A program made the position numbers and the translations under genes. Below, piece after piece: positions 9,775 through 24,020 of a stretch of DNA of 40,295 nt (its first letter is position 1; each line of letters starts with the position of its first letter). Location of the stretch: contig JAJDVT010000080.1 in the NCBI GenBank assembly GCA_022826005.1, positions 1-40,295 on the forward strand, read 5' to 3'. The notes beneath the pieces were generated by a model. It was given only the letters and a program-made list of their open reading frames with translations. It had not been told where the DNA came from and ran no database searches. This DNA is from Gemmatimonadota bacterium (GTDB lineage Bacteria; Gemmatimonadota; Gemmatimonadetes; Longimicrobiales; Gaopeijiaceae).

Positions 9775-10392
9775 ATGGCGATCTTTCCGCCCTACGTGAT
9801 CGAGCGAACCAGTCGCGGTGAACGCAGCTACGACATCTTCAGCCGGCTGCTCATGGACCGGATCGTCTTCCTGGGAAGCTCCATCGACGACAACGTGGCA
9901 AACATCATCGTTGCGCAGCTGCTCTTCCTCGACGCGGACGACCCCGACCGGGACGTCTATCTCTACATCAACTCGCCGGGCGGCAGCGTCTACGCCGGGC
10001 TGGCCATCTACGATACCATGAACCACCTGCGCGCTCCGGTCTCCACCTTCTGCGTGGGGATGGCCGCCTCGATGGGCGCGCTGCTCCTGGCCGCGGGAGA
10101 CAAGGGCAAGAGGAACGCGCTGCCCAACGCGCGGATCATGCTGCACCAGCCGTCGTCCGGGTACCAGGGGACCGCGGCCGACATCGAGATCGCCGCGAAG
10201 GAGATTCTGGGTACGCGGGAGCGCCTGAACCGGATCCTGGCCGAGACGACCGGCCAGAAGCTGAGCAAGATCAACGCGGACGTGGACCGGGACCGCTGGA
10301 TGAGCGCGGAGGAGGCGGTCGGGTACGGTCTGGTCGACCAGGTCCTGCGCAAGGGAGTCGCCCGCAACGGCGGCTCCGACCAGGAGACCTAG
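9775..10392 (+). CDS. clpP: ATP-dependent Clp protease proteolytic subunit
   Basis: Serine protease that forms the double-heptamer chamber fed by ClpX. The 205-residue product has Ser99 (GMAASMGA), His124 (MLHQPSSG) and Asp173 (DRDRW), the complete ClpP triad at normal spacing. The ATG at 9775 begins [10 protein letters not shown], the conserved N terminus; an earlier in-frame start at 9700 lies inside tig. It follows tig by 19 bp. Its TAG stop (10390-10392) directly touches the end of repeat copy A, which separates it from its partner gene clpX. Confidence 0.97.
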
Positions 10393-10641
10393 CAGCCCGT
10401 GGACAAAATCCCCCCGGCATTCGAGCGGCGATGCATCCAGGCTGGATGCTTCGCCTCACCTTTCAGAAAGGTAAAGACAACTTTACATTATGTCATGTTC
10501 AGTATACATATGACGCCTCCAGGGCTGCGCTCTGCGTTGCTCCTCAGCCCAATAGCGCTGCTATTGGCCCCTCGTCACGCCTTGCCAGCCCGGCGCCTCG
10601 CCGCTCTCGGTGCTCGCGGGGCTTTATCCACGGACTTCTAG
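10393..10641 (-). repeat. Interspersed MITE-like repeat, copy A (full length, inverted)
   Basis: About 249 bp filling the whole clpP-clpX gap. The ends form an imperfect terminal inverted repeat: CAGCCCGTGGACAAA on the left, and TTTATCCACGGACTTCTAG on the right. The interior matches copy B in reverse orientation: the segment GCCTTGCCAGCCCGGCGCC, the ATAGC/GCTAT dyad, and the ATGCATC motif near the other end. The middle (about 10470-10515) is AT-rich, unlike the surrounding sequence. CTAG occurs at both outer edges (10389-10392 and 10638-10641), a possible target duplication. No protein is encoded. Confidence 0.8.
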
Positions 10642-11916
10642 ATGTCAAGCGACAGACACCTTCGCTGCAGCTTCTGCGGAAAGTCCAAGGAGTCGGTCAA
10701 GAAGTTCATCTCCGGTCCTTCGGTCTACATCTGCAACGAGTGCATCTCGCTCTGCAACGAGATCCTCGCCGAGGAGGAGGAGCGCGAAAACCAGGAGGCG
10801 TCGGTCTCGACGCTCAAGCCGGAGGAGATCAAGTCCGTCCTCGACGAGTACGTGATTGGACAGGAGCAGGCGAAGCGCGCGCTCGCGGTGGCCGTCTACA
10901 ACCACTACAAGCGCGTCCACCAGAAGGACAGGCTGGCCGGGGTGGAGATCGACAAGGCGAACGTGCTCCTGGTCGGTCCCACCGGCGTCGGCAAGACCCT
11001 GCTCGCGCAGACGCTGGCGCGCATCCTCCAGGTGCCCTTCACGATCGCCGACGCCACGACGCTGACCGAAGCCGGCTACGTGGGCGAAGATGTCGAGAAC
11101 ATCCTGGTGCGCCTGCTGCAGGCCGCCGACTTCAACACTAACGACTGCGAGCGTGGGATCGTCTACATCGACGAGCTCGACAAGATCGCCCGCAAGTCGG
11201 AGAACCCTTCGATCACGCGGGACGTGTCGGGCGAGGGGGTGCAGCAGGCGCTCCTCAAGATCCTGGAGGGGACGGTGGCCAACGTGCCGCCGCAGGGCGG
11301 CCGCAAGCATCCCCAGCAGGAGTACATCCAGATCGACACCACCAGTATCCTCTTCATATGCGGGGGGGCGTTCGAGGGCCTCGACAAGATCGTGGAGCAC
11401 CGCCTCGGGCGGCGGCAGATCGGGTTCGGCGAGCGGACGGGTGAAGGCGGGGACGGGGATGCCCGCCCGCCCGGCACCCTGCCCGAGGCCGCCGACGGTG
11501 ACCTGATGGTGTGGCTGGAACCCGAAGACCTCCAGCGTTTCGGCCTCATCCCCGAACTGGTCGGGCGGCTGCCCGTGACGGTCCAGCTCGAGGACCTCGA
11601 CGAGGAAGCCCTCCTGCGCATCCTGCAGGAGCCCCGCAACGCGCTGGTGAGACAGTACCAGAAGATGTTCGAGATCGAAGGCGTCGGCCTGACCTTCGAT
11701 CCCGGGGCGCTGCGCGAGATCGCGGGGCAGACGCTCGAACGCGGGACCGGCGCGCGGGGCCTGCGGGCCGTGATGGAACGGGTGATGCGCGACGTGATGT
11801 TCGAGCTCCCCTCCAGGGGCGATGTGCGGGAGGTCGTGGTAACCCCCGAGTCGGTGGGCGGCAGGGTTCCCCCGCTCCTTGTCCTCAGGCCCGAGGCGCA
11901 ACGGAAAGAGGCCTGA
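10642..11916 (+). CDS. clpX: ATP-dependent Clp protease ATP-binding subunit ClpX
   Basis: AAA+ unfoldase that selects substrates and feeds them to ClpP. The 424-residue product starts with a C4 zinc-binding domain (CSFCGKS ... CNECISLC, residues about 9-34). Then come Walker A GPTGVGKT (about 113-120), Walker [11 protein letters not shown], the pore-region and sensor segments, and the C-terminal LVGRLPV and RGARGLR-type region. The ATG at 10642 lies one base after repeat copy A. Its whole leader, including any ribosome site, is therefore repeat-derived, and no clear Shine-Dalgarno is present. Gene order clpP-clpX is normal; the repeat between them is not. Confidence 0.97.
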
Positions 11917-11920
11917 CGAG

Positions 11921-12170
11921 AGTAGTCCGTGGATAATCTCCGCGTAGCACCGAGGGAGGCGAGGCGCCGGGCTGGCAAGGCGGGACGAAGGGCGCATAGC
12001 GGAGCTATTCGCCCGAGGAGCAACGCAGAGCGGTGCTTCGGGAATCCGGAAAGTAAAGTAAACGTGATAATTCGTACGGTTCTCTTGACATTCCGAGTGC
12101 GTGAGCTCCGCGGTCCAGCGCGGATGCATCGCCTCCCGAATGCAGCGGGGACTTGTTCAACGGACTGCTG
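11921..12170 (+). repeat. Interspersed MITE-like repeat, copy B (full length)
   Basis: About 250 bp filling the clpX-lon gap. The left end is AGTAGTCCGTGGATAA, and the right end TTGTTCAACGGACTGCTG is its imperfect inverse. The first third holds GGCGCCGGGCTGGCAAGGCG and an inner dyad, GGGCGCATAGC/GCTATTCGCCC. The middle (12049-12100) is AT-rich and includes TTGACA. The last third has GGATGCATCGCC and GAATGCAGCGGGG. Copy A is the same unit in the opposite orientation. It begins 4 bp after the clpX stop and ends 2 bp before the lon ATG. Confidence 0.8.
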
Positions 12171-14674: not shown

Positions 14675-15298
14675 GTGACTGGAATGATCATTCGCAGCGT
14701 CGAGTTCATCGGGTCCGTGGTGGCGCTGGACCAGCCGCCTCCCTCGGGGCTCCCACAGGTTGCCTTCGCGGGTCGGTCCAACGTCGGCAAGTCGTCTCTG
14801 ATCAACCGGCTGCTGGGGCGGCCCCGGCGGAAGATCGCGCGCGTTTCGGCACAGCCCGGGAAGACGCAGGCCCTTAATTTCTACGAAGTGAACCGCGCGT
14901 TTCTTCTGGTGGACCTTCCCGGATCGGGATACGCGAGGGCTCCCCGGGCGGTGCGGGACTCGTGGCGGAAGCTGGTCAGGGGCTACCTTGCTGGGAGCGA
15001 GCAGCTGCGTGGCGTCGTCTACCTGGTCGACTCGCGGCACCCCCCCACCGCCGGGGACCTGGAGTTCGTCGAGTACCTGGCGGAGACCGGGGCGCCGACG
15101 CTGATCGCGCTGACCAAGGTCGACAAGCTCAAGCCGGGGGAGCGGGCGGGAGGCGTCGCGCCGGCCACCCTCGAGCGCCTGGGGGTGCCGGAGGAGCAGG
15201 TCGTCTCCACCTCGGCGAAGACCGGCGAGGGCGCGGAGGAACTGCTGGACGCCATCGCGGCATTGCTGGAACTGGAGGAGGAGGCAGGCCGTGGATAA
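14675..15298 (+). CDS. engB: Ribosome biogenesis GTPase EngB/YsxC (YihA family)
   Basis: Small TRAFAC GTPase needed for large ribosomal subunit assembly. The 207-residue product has G1 GRSNVGKSS, G3 DLPGSGYA, G4 TKVDK and G5 SAKTG. The GTG at 14675 or the ATG at 14684 (MIIRSVEFIGSV, closer to family N termini) could be the start. It follows lon by 15 bp, so co-transcription is likely. The last codons (Ala-Gly-Arg-Gly-stop) are supplied by the terminal repeat of copy C, GCAGGCCGTGGATAA, so the natural C terminus may have been replaced. A minus-strand gene overlaps its last 170 bp. Confidence 0.94.
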   Translation: MTGMIIRSVEFIGSVVALDQPPPSGLPQVAFAGRSNVGKSSLINRLLGRPRRKIARVSAQPGKTQALNFYEVNRAFLLVDLPGSGYARAPRAVRDSWRKLVRGYLAGSEQLRGVVYLVDSRHPPTAGDLEFVEYLAETGAPTLIALTKVDKLKPGERAGGVAPATLERLGVPEEQVVSTSAKTGEGAEELLDAIAALLELEEEAGRG

Positions 15299-16187
15299 TC
15301 GCCGCGTCGCACCGGGGGCGGCGAGGCGCCGGGCTGGCAAGGCGCGGCATTGCCCACACGGGTCCGGAAAGCCCCTCCCTGGCCATGTTTTTCAGGTCGG
15401 GCGCCATGTTCGGGTGCACACTGCCGAGGGCCTCGTGGTCTCCTTCCGATATATCTTCGAGAATTCCCAGCAGATCGGGGTCGCGCATCACCGACGCCAG
15501 CGTGATCGCCTTGCCAATCACGTACGGGCTTTCCAACGACGCATCAAAGCGCTTGGGCGCAGGGCCACCAAGATATAGGAGCGCGACATCCTTGATGCTC
15601 GCGCGGGTCTCGGAGGCCAGGGTCCCTTCCCACCGCTCCACGGCTCTGCTCAGAGCCAATAACGAACCGGCGACATCAGCCCAGGCGGCGTCCGGGGACC
15701 GGGCCCACTCAACCACATGGGGAATCATCACCGGGCCAAACCGCATGAGCGCCTGCCGGACCCCCCCTCCGGAGCAAATCACCTGCACCAGCGCCGCGAT
15801 GGTCGCCGGATCGCGCAACGCAATGACGGCGTGCTCAAGCTCCAGAGAGAGCTCGAGGTGCCTGCCGCCGATTCCCGTGGGGGTGCAGCCGTCCAGGTGC
15901 ACCCTGGCTTCCCGGTCGAGCGCGCTGATGAGCGCCGCCGACAGTTCGGGCGTTACAACGTAGCCTGGAACAAACTTCCACCCCAACTCGTCCTCTGGAT
16001 CGAAGCCAAACGGCACCGCGCCCAGCGCGTGGGCGACCGTGTCGCGGTCATGGCTTCTGAGGGCCCGGGCGATGTCGGCCTGCGACCGCCCCGGCCCGGC
16101 CTGGCCCGCCAGGGCCGGGGCCGCGGCGAGTACCGCGATGCCCGCCCAGGTGACCGGATTGCAGATCTGTCTCGTCGCTACCTCCAA
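15129..16187 (-). CDS. Secreted HEAT-repeat-like hypothetical protein with repeat-derived tail
   Basis: I recognise no named family. The product has a signal peptide (TTG start at 16187, hydrophobic VTWAGIAVLAAAPALAGQ). A helical body of about 240 residues with repeated leucine- and alanine-rich helices follows, such as ALRDPATIAALVQVI and WADVAGSLLALSRAVE, resembling HEAT/PBS-lyase-like repeats. After about residue 270 (NMAREGLSGPVWAM) the frame runs through repeat copy C and then antisense into engB, giving a low-quality Pro/Arg-rich tail. The original stop was probably lost when the repeat arrived. The start is uncertain: TTG overlaps the stop of the upstream peptidase remnant, and an in-frame ATG at 16289 also exists. 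Confidence 0.5.
   Translation of the reverse strand: MEVATRQICNPVTWAGIAVLAAAPALAGQAGPGRSQADIARALRSHDRDTVAHALGAVPFGFDPEDELGWKFVPGYVVTPELSAALISALDREARVHLDGCTPTGIGGRHLELSLELEHAVIALRDPATIAALVQVICSGGGVRQALMRFGPVMIPHVVEWARSPDAAWADVAGSLLALSRAVERWEGTLASETRASIKDVALLYLGGPAPKRFDASLESPYVIGKAITLASVMRDPDLLGILEDISEGDHEALGSVHPNMAPDLKNMAREGLSGPVWAMPRLASPAPRRPRCDAAIIHGLPPPPVPAMPRWRPAVPPRPRRSSPRWRRPAPPAPPGARGWPARRLPPAPPA
15285..15337 (+). repeat. MITE-like repeat, copy C (left end only)
   Basis: The terminal motif GCAGGCCGTGGATAA (15285-15298) is followed by about 40 bp matching the left third of copy B, including GGCGAGGCGCCGGGCTGGCAAGGCG, and stops at about 15337. The rest of the unit is missing. The fragment provides the engB stop codon and, on the other strand, coding sequence for the tail of the HEAT-like protein. 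Confidence 0.7.
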
Positions 16188-16898
16188 GCCAGGTGGTTGT
16201 GGTTGCCTTCGGCTGCGGAATAGTTTCTGGATTCGACCGAGTTGTCCAAGCCCCAGATGTAGATCCGGTTTTTCAGCGAAACCGTCCATTCCCTCGTCTC
16301 CGTATAGAAGTCCACAGCCGGACCGTGGATGTGATGGCTCCCGAACGGATTCTCGCTTTCCGAAACGAACTCGTTCCGTACAGGGCAGCGGTAGGCGGAC
16401 GTGTACTCGAGCTCTATGTTGAAGTGCGCCTCGGTTTTGGCGATGCCGTTCGGCAGCGCAGAGCTGATGTATCCGTAGCCGTCGTGGTAGGCATGGTAGC
16501 CCGATGCACCTACGCCGATCAAGTCAGAAACCAGCCTTCGAGAACCTGGTGCATGGCCAGGTTCCCCGGATTCTGTCGTCGTTGTACTCGGCGGCCAGGC
16601 CATCTCTCGCGTCGCCGCAGTCACTCCCAGCTCCACCACCACCACCTCCAGTCTCCCACGGGTGTTCCCACGGTCCGTAGTACGTCACCGTACACCAATA
16701 TTGACCCTCGTCGTTCTCTTCGTCGTCTTCGCCAGAATCCAGCCTCTCGCAGCTGCACTGCGTAGACCCGCCATCCTGGTAAGGTTCAGGGCACCGCGCC
16801 ACGCAATCTCCCAAGGGGTCGTCGCACCAGTAGTTCTCCCGCGACTCTGCCACCTCGTCCAGTTCCTGCGGTAGGGAGCCGCGTTCGGCAATCTCCAT
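16178..16898 (-). pseudogene. Frameshifted M15-like (D-Ala-D-Ala carboxypeptidase-type) peptidase
   Basis: Two overlapping frames together make one protein. The first, from ATG 16898, has a cysteine-rich acidic region, a glycine linker and CGDARDGLAAEYND ... WPCTRFSKAG, then stops at 16524. The second frame (to 16178) continues with SDLIGVGASGYHAYHDGYG, TSAYRCPVRNEF and GSHHIHGPAVDFY. The last fits the M15 zinc-site pattern SxHxxGxAxD, and NHNH near the end may be another metal ligand region. Removing one base from the AAA run at 16528-16530 (TTT on the coding strand) joins them as FSKAGSDLIG. Upstream the frame stays open only to a TGA at about 16971, where repeat copy D begins, so the 5' end also looks cut off. 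It is a pseudogene unless the indel is a sequencing error. Confidence 0.55.
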
Positions 16899-16984
16899 TC
16901 CACCCGGACCACGTCTCAAGATGAACGACTCCGGCTTCCCAATTGACTTTAGACGACTTCTTGCTGTGATTCAGACCTCGGGTG

Positions 16985-17190
16985 CTCCGCCGGGCTGGCA
17001 AGGCGCGACGAAGGGCGCATAGCGGAGCTATTCGCCCAATGAGCAGCGCAGAGCGGCGCTCCAAGTGGCATGGACGGAAAGGAAACATGACATTGTGTAA
17101 TGTTTTCATGACAACACAGAGCCTCAGCGCCGCGACCAGCCCGGATGCATCGCCGACCGAATGCAGCGGGGACTTATTCCACGGCCTGCC
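16985..17190 (+). repeat. MITE-like repeat, copy D (left end missing)
   Basis: It starts inside the left third at CCGCCGGGCTGGCAAGGCG, keeps the GGGCGCATAGC/GCTATTCGCCC dyad, an AT-rich middle (about 17080-17120) and the right third (CCCGGATGCATCGCCG, GAATGCAGCGGGGACTTATT). It ends with the terminal repeat CCACGGCCTGCC. It has the same orientation as copy B. Its truncated left edge abuts the 5'-truncated M15-like gene. Confidence 0.75.
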
Positions 17191-17202
17191 AACAGGCCGT
17201 GG
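17179..17202. repeat. Perfect palindrome where two repeat ends meet
   Basis: CCACGGCCTG (17179-17188) and CAGGCCGTGG (17193-17202) are exact inverses around a CCAA spacer, with near-complementary TTATT/ATAAT just outside. It is formed by the right end of copy D meeting the left end of another copy (17193-17212, CAGGCCGTGGATAATCCCCG). In RNA it would fold as a 10-bp GC-rich hairpin right before the lipoprotein gene. Confidence 0.7.
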
Positions 17203-17218
17203 ATAATCCCCGGGGTTC

Positions 17219-17851
17219 ATGAGACTCGAGCGCGCCGTACACGCTTCGCTCTGCTCACTCGCGGTTACGTGGGTGGGCTGCGGGCCGCCCCCGATGCCTG
17301 CGGAGGGGGCCCGGCCGGCGCCGGGGATGCGTTCTGTCGAGGAGGTGGACCGCGAACGTTCCGGGTCCCTGCGCCAGGACCAGATATCGGTGCGCATGGC
17401 CGCCGGCGAGCTGCTGATCGAGGTGACTCCGCTGGCCGCCTGGGTCCTCGAGGCCGCGGCGCCCGACACACGCGACCGGCTGCTGCGAATCGCCGAAGCG
17501 CACGGGCCGGAGCTGGCCCGCCGCACCGGTGCCGCGGAGCCCGCGCTCTTTCTGGTGTCCTTCACCAGCCGTCAACCCGGCGCCGAGTTCCAGCCGGACG
17601 ACCTCCATCTGGTGTCGCGCGGACTGAGGGAGCGGCCCGCGGCCATCCGCGCCATCACCCCCGGATGGGGCAGCCACCGGCTCGAGCAGCAGGCCACCGC
17701 CCAGGCCGTGTACGCCTACGCGGGCGGCGTGGACCTGACCCGGGAGATGACGGTCGCCTACCAGGGCGCGGAGGATTCGTCCTGGTCGTCCAGGCTGGCC
17801 GTGATCGAGGCGGAGCGGGCGAGGATCGCAAGGCGGCGGTCCCTGGAATAG
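17219..17851 (+). CDS. Small lipoprotein, function unknown
   Basis: The 210-residue product has a short hydrophobic signal sequence with a lipobox-like cysteine (TWVGCGPP, about residue 21). A hydrophilic alpha/beta region with no family I recognise follows (ISVRMAAGELLIEVTPLAAWVL, EPALFLVSFTSRQPG). It ends in a basic helix (IEAERARIARRRS). It stands alone on the plus strand between minus-strand genes and is flanked on both sides by repeat pieces. The leader carries a repeat left end, and the final GTCCCTGGAATAG looks like a decayed copy of GTCCGTGGATAA, which supplies the stop. The ATG at 17219 has no clear ribosome site. Coding potential looks real, but the function is unknown. Confidence 0.6.
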   Translation: MRLERAVHASLCSLAVTWVGCGPPPMPAEGARPAPGMRSVEEVDRERSGSLRQDQISVRMAAGELLIEVTPLAAWVLEAAAPDTRDRLLRIAEAHGPELARRTGAAEPALFLVSFTSRQPGAEFQPDDLHLVSRGLRERPAAIRAITPGWGSHRLEQQATAQAVYAYAGGVDLTREMTVAYQGAEDSSWSSRLAVIEAERARIARRRSLE

Positions 17852-17905
17852 GCCCCGTGTCGCGCTGAGGGCGTCGAGGAGCCGGGCCGGCAAGGCGGGA
17901 CGAGC
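17839..17905 (+). repeat. MITE-like repeat, decayed left-end fragment
   Basis: The stretch from GTCCCTGGAATAG aligns with the left terminal repeat GTCCGTGGATAA. It continues through CCCCGTGTCGCGCTGAGGGCG to GAGCCGGGCCGGCAAGGCG, matching the left third of copies B and C with several changes. It lies between the lipoprotein and the sigma-54 activator gene, whose 3' end points towards it. Confidence 0.5.
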
Positions 17906-23949: not shown

Positions 23950-23964
23950 TCTGAGCGGAGAGGT

Positions 23965-24020
23965 CCAGCCCGGATGCATCACCGTTCAAATGCAGCGGGG
24001 CGTATTCCACGGACTGCTGG
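23965..24020 (+). repeat. MITE-like repeat, right-end fragment
   Basis: CCAGCCCGGATGCATCACC, then GTTCAAATGCAGCGGGGCG and GTATTCCACGGACTGCTGG match the right third and terminal repeat of copies B and D. It lies just upstream of hslV, so it forms much of the hslV leader on the other strand. Confidence 0.65.

Follow-up and report, generated by a model that had tools for sequence, protein, structure and literature searches.

Why does engB, the gene for a YsxC/YihA GTPase, end inside a repeat that is dispersed through the genome of its host? The gene lies on the forward strand of the window, the whole 40,295-nucleotide stretch of Gemmatimonadota DNA analysed here (its genome is called G000 below), as an open reading frame running by gene call from 14675 or 14684 to 15298; its product scores 188.7 bits against TIGR03598 (YsxC). 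The last codons, at 15284-15298, read GCA GGC CGT GGA TAA and give Ala-Gly-Arg-Gly-stop. They fall within the left end of a repeat of about 245 bp, present here as a forward-strand left-end fragment at 15285-15346 (HMM match 15283-15346, E 5e-12), of which 15285-15298 encode the last engB residues and the TAA (15296-15298). The first-pass annotation had already read this ending as the terminal motif of a repeat, and had gone on to propose that the in-frame TAA lets the repeat land at gene ends at low cost, as a form of self-limiting insertion.

The ending itself is borne out by comparison with sister orthologues. Nineteen were fetched and 18 could be read to the stop (L104, cut by its contig end, was left out). 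In 17 of the 18, engB has a native end without the repeat, commonly ...ES or ...GS before TGA, and most use TGA. The remaining one, at locus L107 of genome G011, also ends in the repeat, as ...VGG-TGA, at a position different from that in G000, so engB has been hit more than once. The repeat-derived terminus is a derived state and not the product of chance. At the G011 locus (contig C12), two engB copies lie about 3 kb apart, and the copy that was read stops in the repeat end.

The repeat, its copies in the window and a larger IS with the same ends

With the engB end as query, at least 41 matches were found in G000 (40 candidates scored), and the pattern AGNCCGTGGATAA, with at most one mismatch allowed, gave 98 matches in that genome versus 6 for a reversed control pattern. 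An HMM built from 21 aligned copies and run over 906 kb of G000 (the window plus 71 stretches around matches) returned 115 non-redundant matches, 29 of them near full length, at about 245 bp (213-247). The ends are inverted copies of CAGNCCGTGGA...; the arms to which they belong are longer and imperfect, alignment columns 6-59 pairing with 203-258. The family was detected in every one of the 23 genomes of the genus; overall, 30 of the 59 genomes searched have it.

Two full-length copies lie in the window, one on the reverse strand between clpP and clpX (10393-10637, HMM E 8.4e-75; absent in genome G005) and one on the forward strand between clpX and lon (11923-12167, 2.8e-77; absent in G020 and G005). 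Neither interval wholly contains an open reading frame of 90 or more codons, and no gene was called in either. These gene names, and likewise gyrA, rplJ, tpiA, ptsI, recR and dxr, are assigned from protein sequences and gene order. The remaining pieces are fragments, all on the forward strand. Beyond the engB end, a block of about 1.6 kb (15346-16936, no strand assigned) separates two pieces of the repeat and has a 93% copy at C132:5340-6941, which follows a putative methyltransferase-like reading frame, so labelled from a motif. The block is followed by a copy without its left end and with an intact right end (16988-17188; model positions 50-254, E 3e-49) and by a solo left end, CAGGCCGTGGATAA, found as a pattern match at 17193-17206. 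A decayed left end at 17838-17904 (E 1.1e-6) overlaps the 3' end of a lipoprotein-like gene called at 17219-17851, with its stop TAG at 17849-17851; that this gene ends in a decayed copy, as had been suggested, is plausible, with weaker evidence than at engB. A right-end fragment lies at 23951-24016 (E 6.7e-12).

In the interior of the repeat, e.g. in the copy at 11923-12167 (model 115-200), four half sites of the TGTAA type, spaced by about 11 bp, form the operator-like sequence TGTAAAG-n-ACATGACAT-n-TGTAATGT-n-CTTTACA. This motif also occurs without repeat ends, with 25 such matches in 1.3 Mb, of which some count a single place on both strands and only one falls within a called gene; it stands alone at L374:11873-11967, L371:13899-13967, L366:17700-17743 and L038:7182-7278. 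These arrangements suggest that the binding site of a putative regulator may have been captured and spread by the repeat.

The nature of the repeat is indicated by what else carries its ends. Thirty PF01609 loci of the genus were fetched, and five of them, all in sister species, are flanked by the inverted ends of the repeat, 1.50-1.53 kb apart. With two further copies, this makes seven copies of an IS (in G001, G005, G007, G014, G015 and G018), of which six lie between two CTAG tetranucleotides and one between CTAA and CTAG. The transposase has the domains DUF772 (PF05598) and DDE_Tnp_1 (PF01609), and 17 of the 23 genomes of the genus contain relatives of this transposase, some as short fragments or distant matches; in G000 only transposase fragments were found (C130:21076-21390). 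Since the same ends flank this ~1.5-kb DDE transposase IS in sister species, the repeat is best read as its non-coding, non-autonomous MITE. It has three of the features by which bacterial MITEs are recognized: a length below 500 bp with terminal inverted repeats (29 near-full copies with CAGNCCGTGGA ends), no transposase of its own, and an autonomous partner with the same ends, represented by the seven IS copies.

The IS is nearest to two named families, but scores below the cut-offs of both. Its best NCBIfam match is the IS1182 model NF033551, at 196.4 bits where the cut-off is 270, and the best NCBIfam IS5 model gives 90 where the cut-off is 140. Its 4-bp target, YTAR/CTAG, is that of the IS5 family: IS5 of E. 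coli has a DDE transposase, targets Py-T-A-Pu, most often CTAG, and duplicates 4 bp, according to passages of PMC5493358, but the transposase here is only distantly similar and falls below the NCBIfam cut-off. The IS1182 family is akin to it through the best model match, and for its member IS1272, passages of PMC5678879 report a copy whose inverted repeat contains a TAA that truncates a gene; unlike the system here, IS1272 replaces stem-loops and makes no target duplication, and the transposase here stays under the curated cut-off. A close parallel to the repeat is MITEPsy1 of Pseudomonas syringae, described in passages of PMC3189936 as 100 nt long with 18-nt inverted repeats, inserting after CTAG or YTAA with a 4-nt duplication and presumably descended from ISPsy2, a larger IS. 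Both elements are small, use a CTAG-type target, with a 4-nt duplication that is probable for the repeat here, and have a larger IS as presumed source; they differ in end sequence, host and partner IS, and those passages contain no tally against stop codons.

The target and its probable duplication

At 128 MITE ends of G000 the flanking tetranucleotide has the consensus C (80), T (64) or C (36), A (69) or G (47), G (105), and no clear signal was seen at -5 to -10 outside these ends. The favoured target is CTAG or, more loosely, CYRG, and it is probably duplicated upon insertion. One case is the clpP-clpX interval, where G005 has a single ATAG (GCATAGATG) and the window has CTAG-element-CTAG-ATG. 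Both target copies are read on the forward strand: the left one (10389-10392) holds the clpP stop, TAG at 10390-10392, the repeat starts at 10393, just as the first-pass annotation had placed the clpP stop at a repeat edge, and the right one (10638-10641) lies directly 5' of the clpX ATG. At rplJ, G020 has a single GAAG versus GAAG-element-CCAG in G000. At the clpX-lon site the element is likewise absent from the empty site, but a duplication is not clear. The tetranucleotides on the two sides of a MITE copy agreed no better than shuffled pairs in G000 (exact pairs 4/30, P 0.075) or in the complete sister genome G021 (4/22, P 0.18), and therefore the 4-bp duplication rests on the IS copies and the two empty sites. 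Unmatched pairs are as expected if many copies are old.

This choice of target has a consequence for where an element can land. Among 161 sampled CTAG sites outside repeats, 31 lie within genes (721 kb), 92 in intergenic or edge sequence (169 kb), and the other 38 are stops. Because CTAG is rare in genes and contains TAG, its choice alone puts the element outside gene bodies, often at stops. The IS shows the same relation from within: wherever the frame is intact (three of three copies), translation of the transposase ends at the target's TAG, immediately outside the IS. Transposase genes of IS elements can do without a stop of their own and use one in the target; a literature search did not confirm stop borrowing by transposases as a general phenomenon.

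Repeat ends and stop codons

The tally proposed along with the first annotation, repeat position against gene 3' ends, gave a non-random outcome. In G000, 15 of 128 ends exactly abut a called stop, always a TAG or TAA in the flank, and in G021 the same holds for 12 of 94, one of these stops being TGA. From per-tetramer intergenic rates, 2.3 and 3.3 would be expected, respectively. A second class holds the gene's stop inside the repeat: 11 of 128 ends in G000 (five at -14, four at -15 and two at -3), among them those of engB, rplJ, tpiA and ptsI. In G021 this class numbers 0 of 94, though at least 28 left ends there have a stop in the relevant frame. These counts come from 71 G000 stretches chosen around pattern matches, which favours TAA ends, and from 20 G021 stretches around similarity matches, and are not a full-genome census. 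Genes were called with a home-made gene finder; an end had to match the consensus at 8 or more of 11 positions to be counted, which reduced the G000 set from 130 to 128, and about 20 of the 94 G021 ends, in tandem or abutting units with TGCC/TGGG junctions, were kept. At L171:7661-8174 and at L165 of G021, MITE-related units joined by TGCC repeat in tandem about every 171 bp. None of the papers returned by the literature searches dealt with this repeat or counted MITE positions relative to stop codons.

Could the transposase actively seek translation-termination sites or transcript ends, beyond its choice of CTAG? Repeat ends are indeed found at a larger share of NTAG stops than of intergenic NTAG sites (odds ratio 6.7, P 1.5e-5 in G000; 3.4, P 0.004 in G021). 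When CTAG alone is considered, however, the excess is small: 6/43 stops versus 8/190 intergenic sites are occupied in G000 (P 0.026), and pooled with G021 10/59 versus 27/296, an odds ratio of 2.0 that is not significant (P 0.10). The residual excess can come from selection, which would keep a stop's TAG while neutral flanks drift. Moreover, of the 279 TGA stops available in G000, none has a repeat end directly beside it. Active targeting is very unlikely on these grounds.

The proposal that the in-frame TAA of the terminal repeat is an adaptation for cheap landing at gene ends has the second class in its favour, namely the 11 of 128 ends that supply a host stop. To these can be added a sample of 20 G000 stretches (400 kb) chosen away from matches and devoid of well-matched ends, in which four ends remain, three supplying a gene stop and one adjoining a stop. 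Genes read into 17 ends; nine stop in the TAA frames, two at a TAG made by a C to T change and six deeper, and the bias to TAA frames (9/15 versus 1/3 expected, P 0.031) supports the survivorship of insertions with an in-frame stop, not a reason for landing. The larger, stop-abutting class (15/128 and 12/94), by contrast, has its stop outside the repeat. At gyrA, 22 orthologues were read, 18 with TAG and 4 with TGA, and some of the TAG orthologues, that of G005 among them, are free of the repeat: the gyrA TAG beside the repeat is native. The lack of repeat-encoded stops in G021, despite the many ends that could supply one, also argues against adaptation. We consider this explanation unlikely; what stands of it is the second class, and the notion of self-limiting insertion finds no support in a family spread through all 23 genomes of the genus.

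The place after genes could also reflect selection on a structural 3'-UTR element, a REP/ERIC-like terminator or mRNA stabiliser for which mobility is secondary. MITE copies indeed fold into a long hairpin of 57 pairs, 11 of them changed on both sides and 95.6% of cells paired, and on four of five measures no shuffle out of 500 reaches the observed value. A transposon with long inverted repeats folds in the same way, however, 5 of the 29 full-length copies face no gene 3' end, and the empty sites show mobility within the genus; selection for the post-gene place is quite unlikely. No RNA function is claimed from the compensatory pairing, which long inverted repeats and subfamilies can yield. 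The central hairpin, GGGCGAATAGC..GCTATTCGCCC (alignment columns 65-100), varies between paired versions, CCAATAGC/GCTATTGG at window 10387-10643 being one of the alternatives. An Rfam scan of the window matched nothing but a tRNA. A comparable location is known for QMITE2 of Coxiella burnetii, which lies primarily in 3' untranslated regions, as cited in passages of a MITE review (PMC10969869); the 3' placement is alike, and those passages mention neither exact abutment to stops nor a CTAG rule.

A stop-containing target and repeat-encoded C-termini

The explanation that accounts best for the shared ends, the flanks, the empty sites and the position counts is that the MITE is moved in trans by the ~1.5-kb IS and that a CTAG-like target containing a stop codon explains its placement at gene ends; we give it a probability of roughly 0.86. 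The DDE transposase would recognise the shared ends, CAG[GTC]CCGTGGA..., and insert at CTAG-like tetranucleotides, with 4 bp duplicated. As CTAG holds TAG and is strongly depleted in the genes of this G+C-rich genome, many of the available targets would be stops or intergenic sites. Since the duplication would restore the TAG, both neighbouring genes would stay intact, as with clpP and gyrA. An insertion a few codons upstream of the native stop, on the other hand, would survive mostly if the repeat end has an in-frame stop, in the version GTCCGTGGATAA or CAGxCCGTGGAATAA, and would leave the gene with a foreign tail of a few residues, as in engB, rplJ and tpiA. Mobilisation in trans and this survivorship are what we infer from the observed ends and counts.

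The end of rplJ is native in G005, G020 and more distant relatives, and comes from the repeat in G000 and G008; for tpiA, 22 orthologues were read, and that of G000 is the one case with an end supplied by the repeat. Partial copies are more frequent among the stop-supplying ends (9/11) than among the stop-abutting ones (5/15; P 0.021), and the rplJ copy of G008 has shrunk to a stub of about 45 bp that still gives the stop. Together with the three of four remaining ends and the engB hits in G000 and G011, this supports a tentative reading, to which we assign somewhat less than even odds, in which MITE ends are domesticated as C-termini: the stop-supplying end is kept, the rest of the element is lost and the tails of core proteins are rewritten. 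If so, the MITE would steadily change the last residues of EngB, ribosomal protein L10, triosephosphate isomerase and a PtsI-like protein.

The type of element is already known; what this case adds is the counting of repeat ends against stops, a set of core genes whose tails are encoded by the repeat, and a transposase that takes its stop from the target. The main reading would make this family a countable case of a transposon that spares its host without a dedicated mechanism, through a target tetranucleotide that is scarce in genes and itself contains a stop. The family also provides core genes with stop codons and short tails at the C-terminus, and the transposase gene of the partner IS borrows its own stop from the target.
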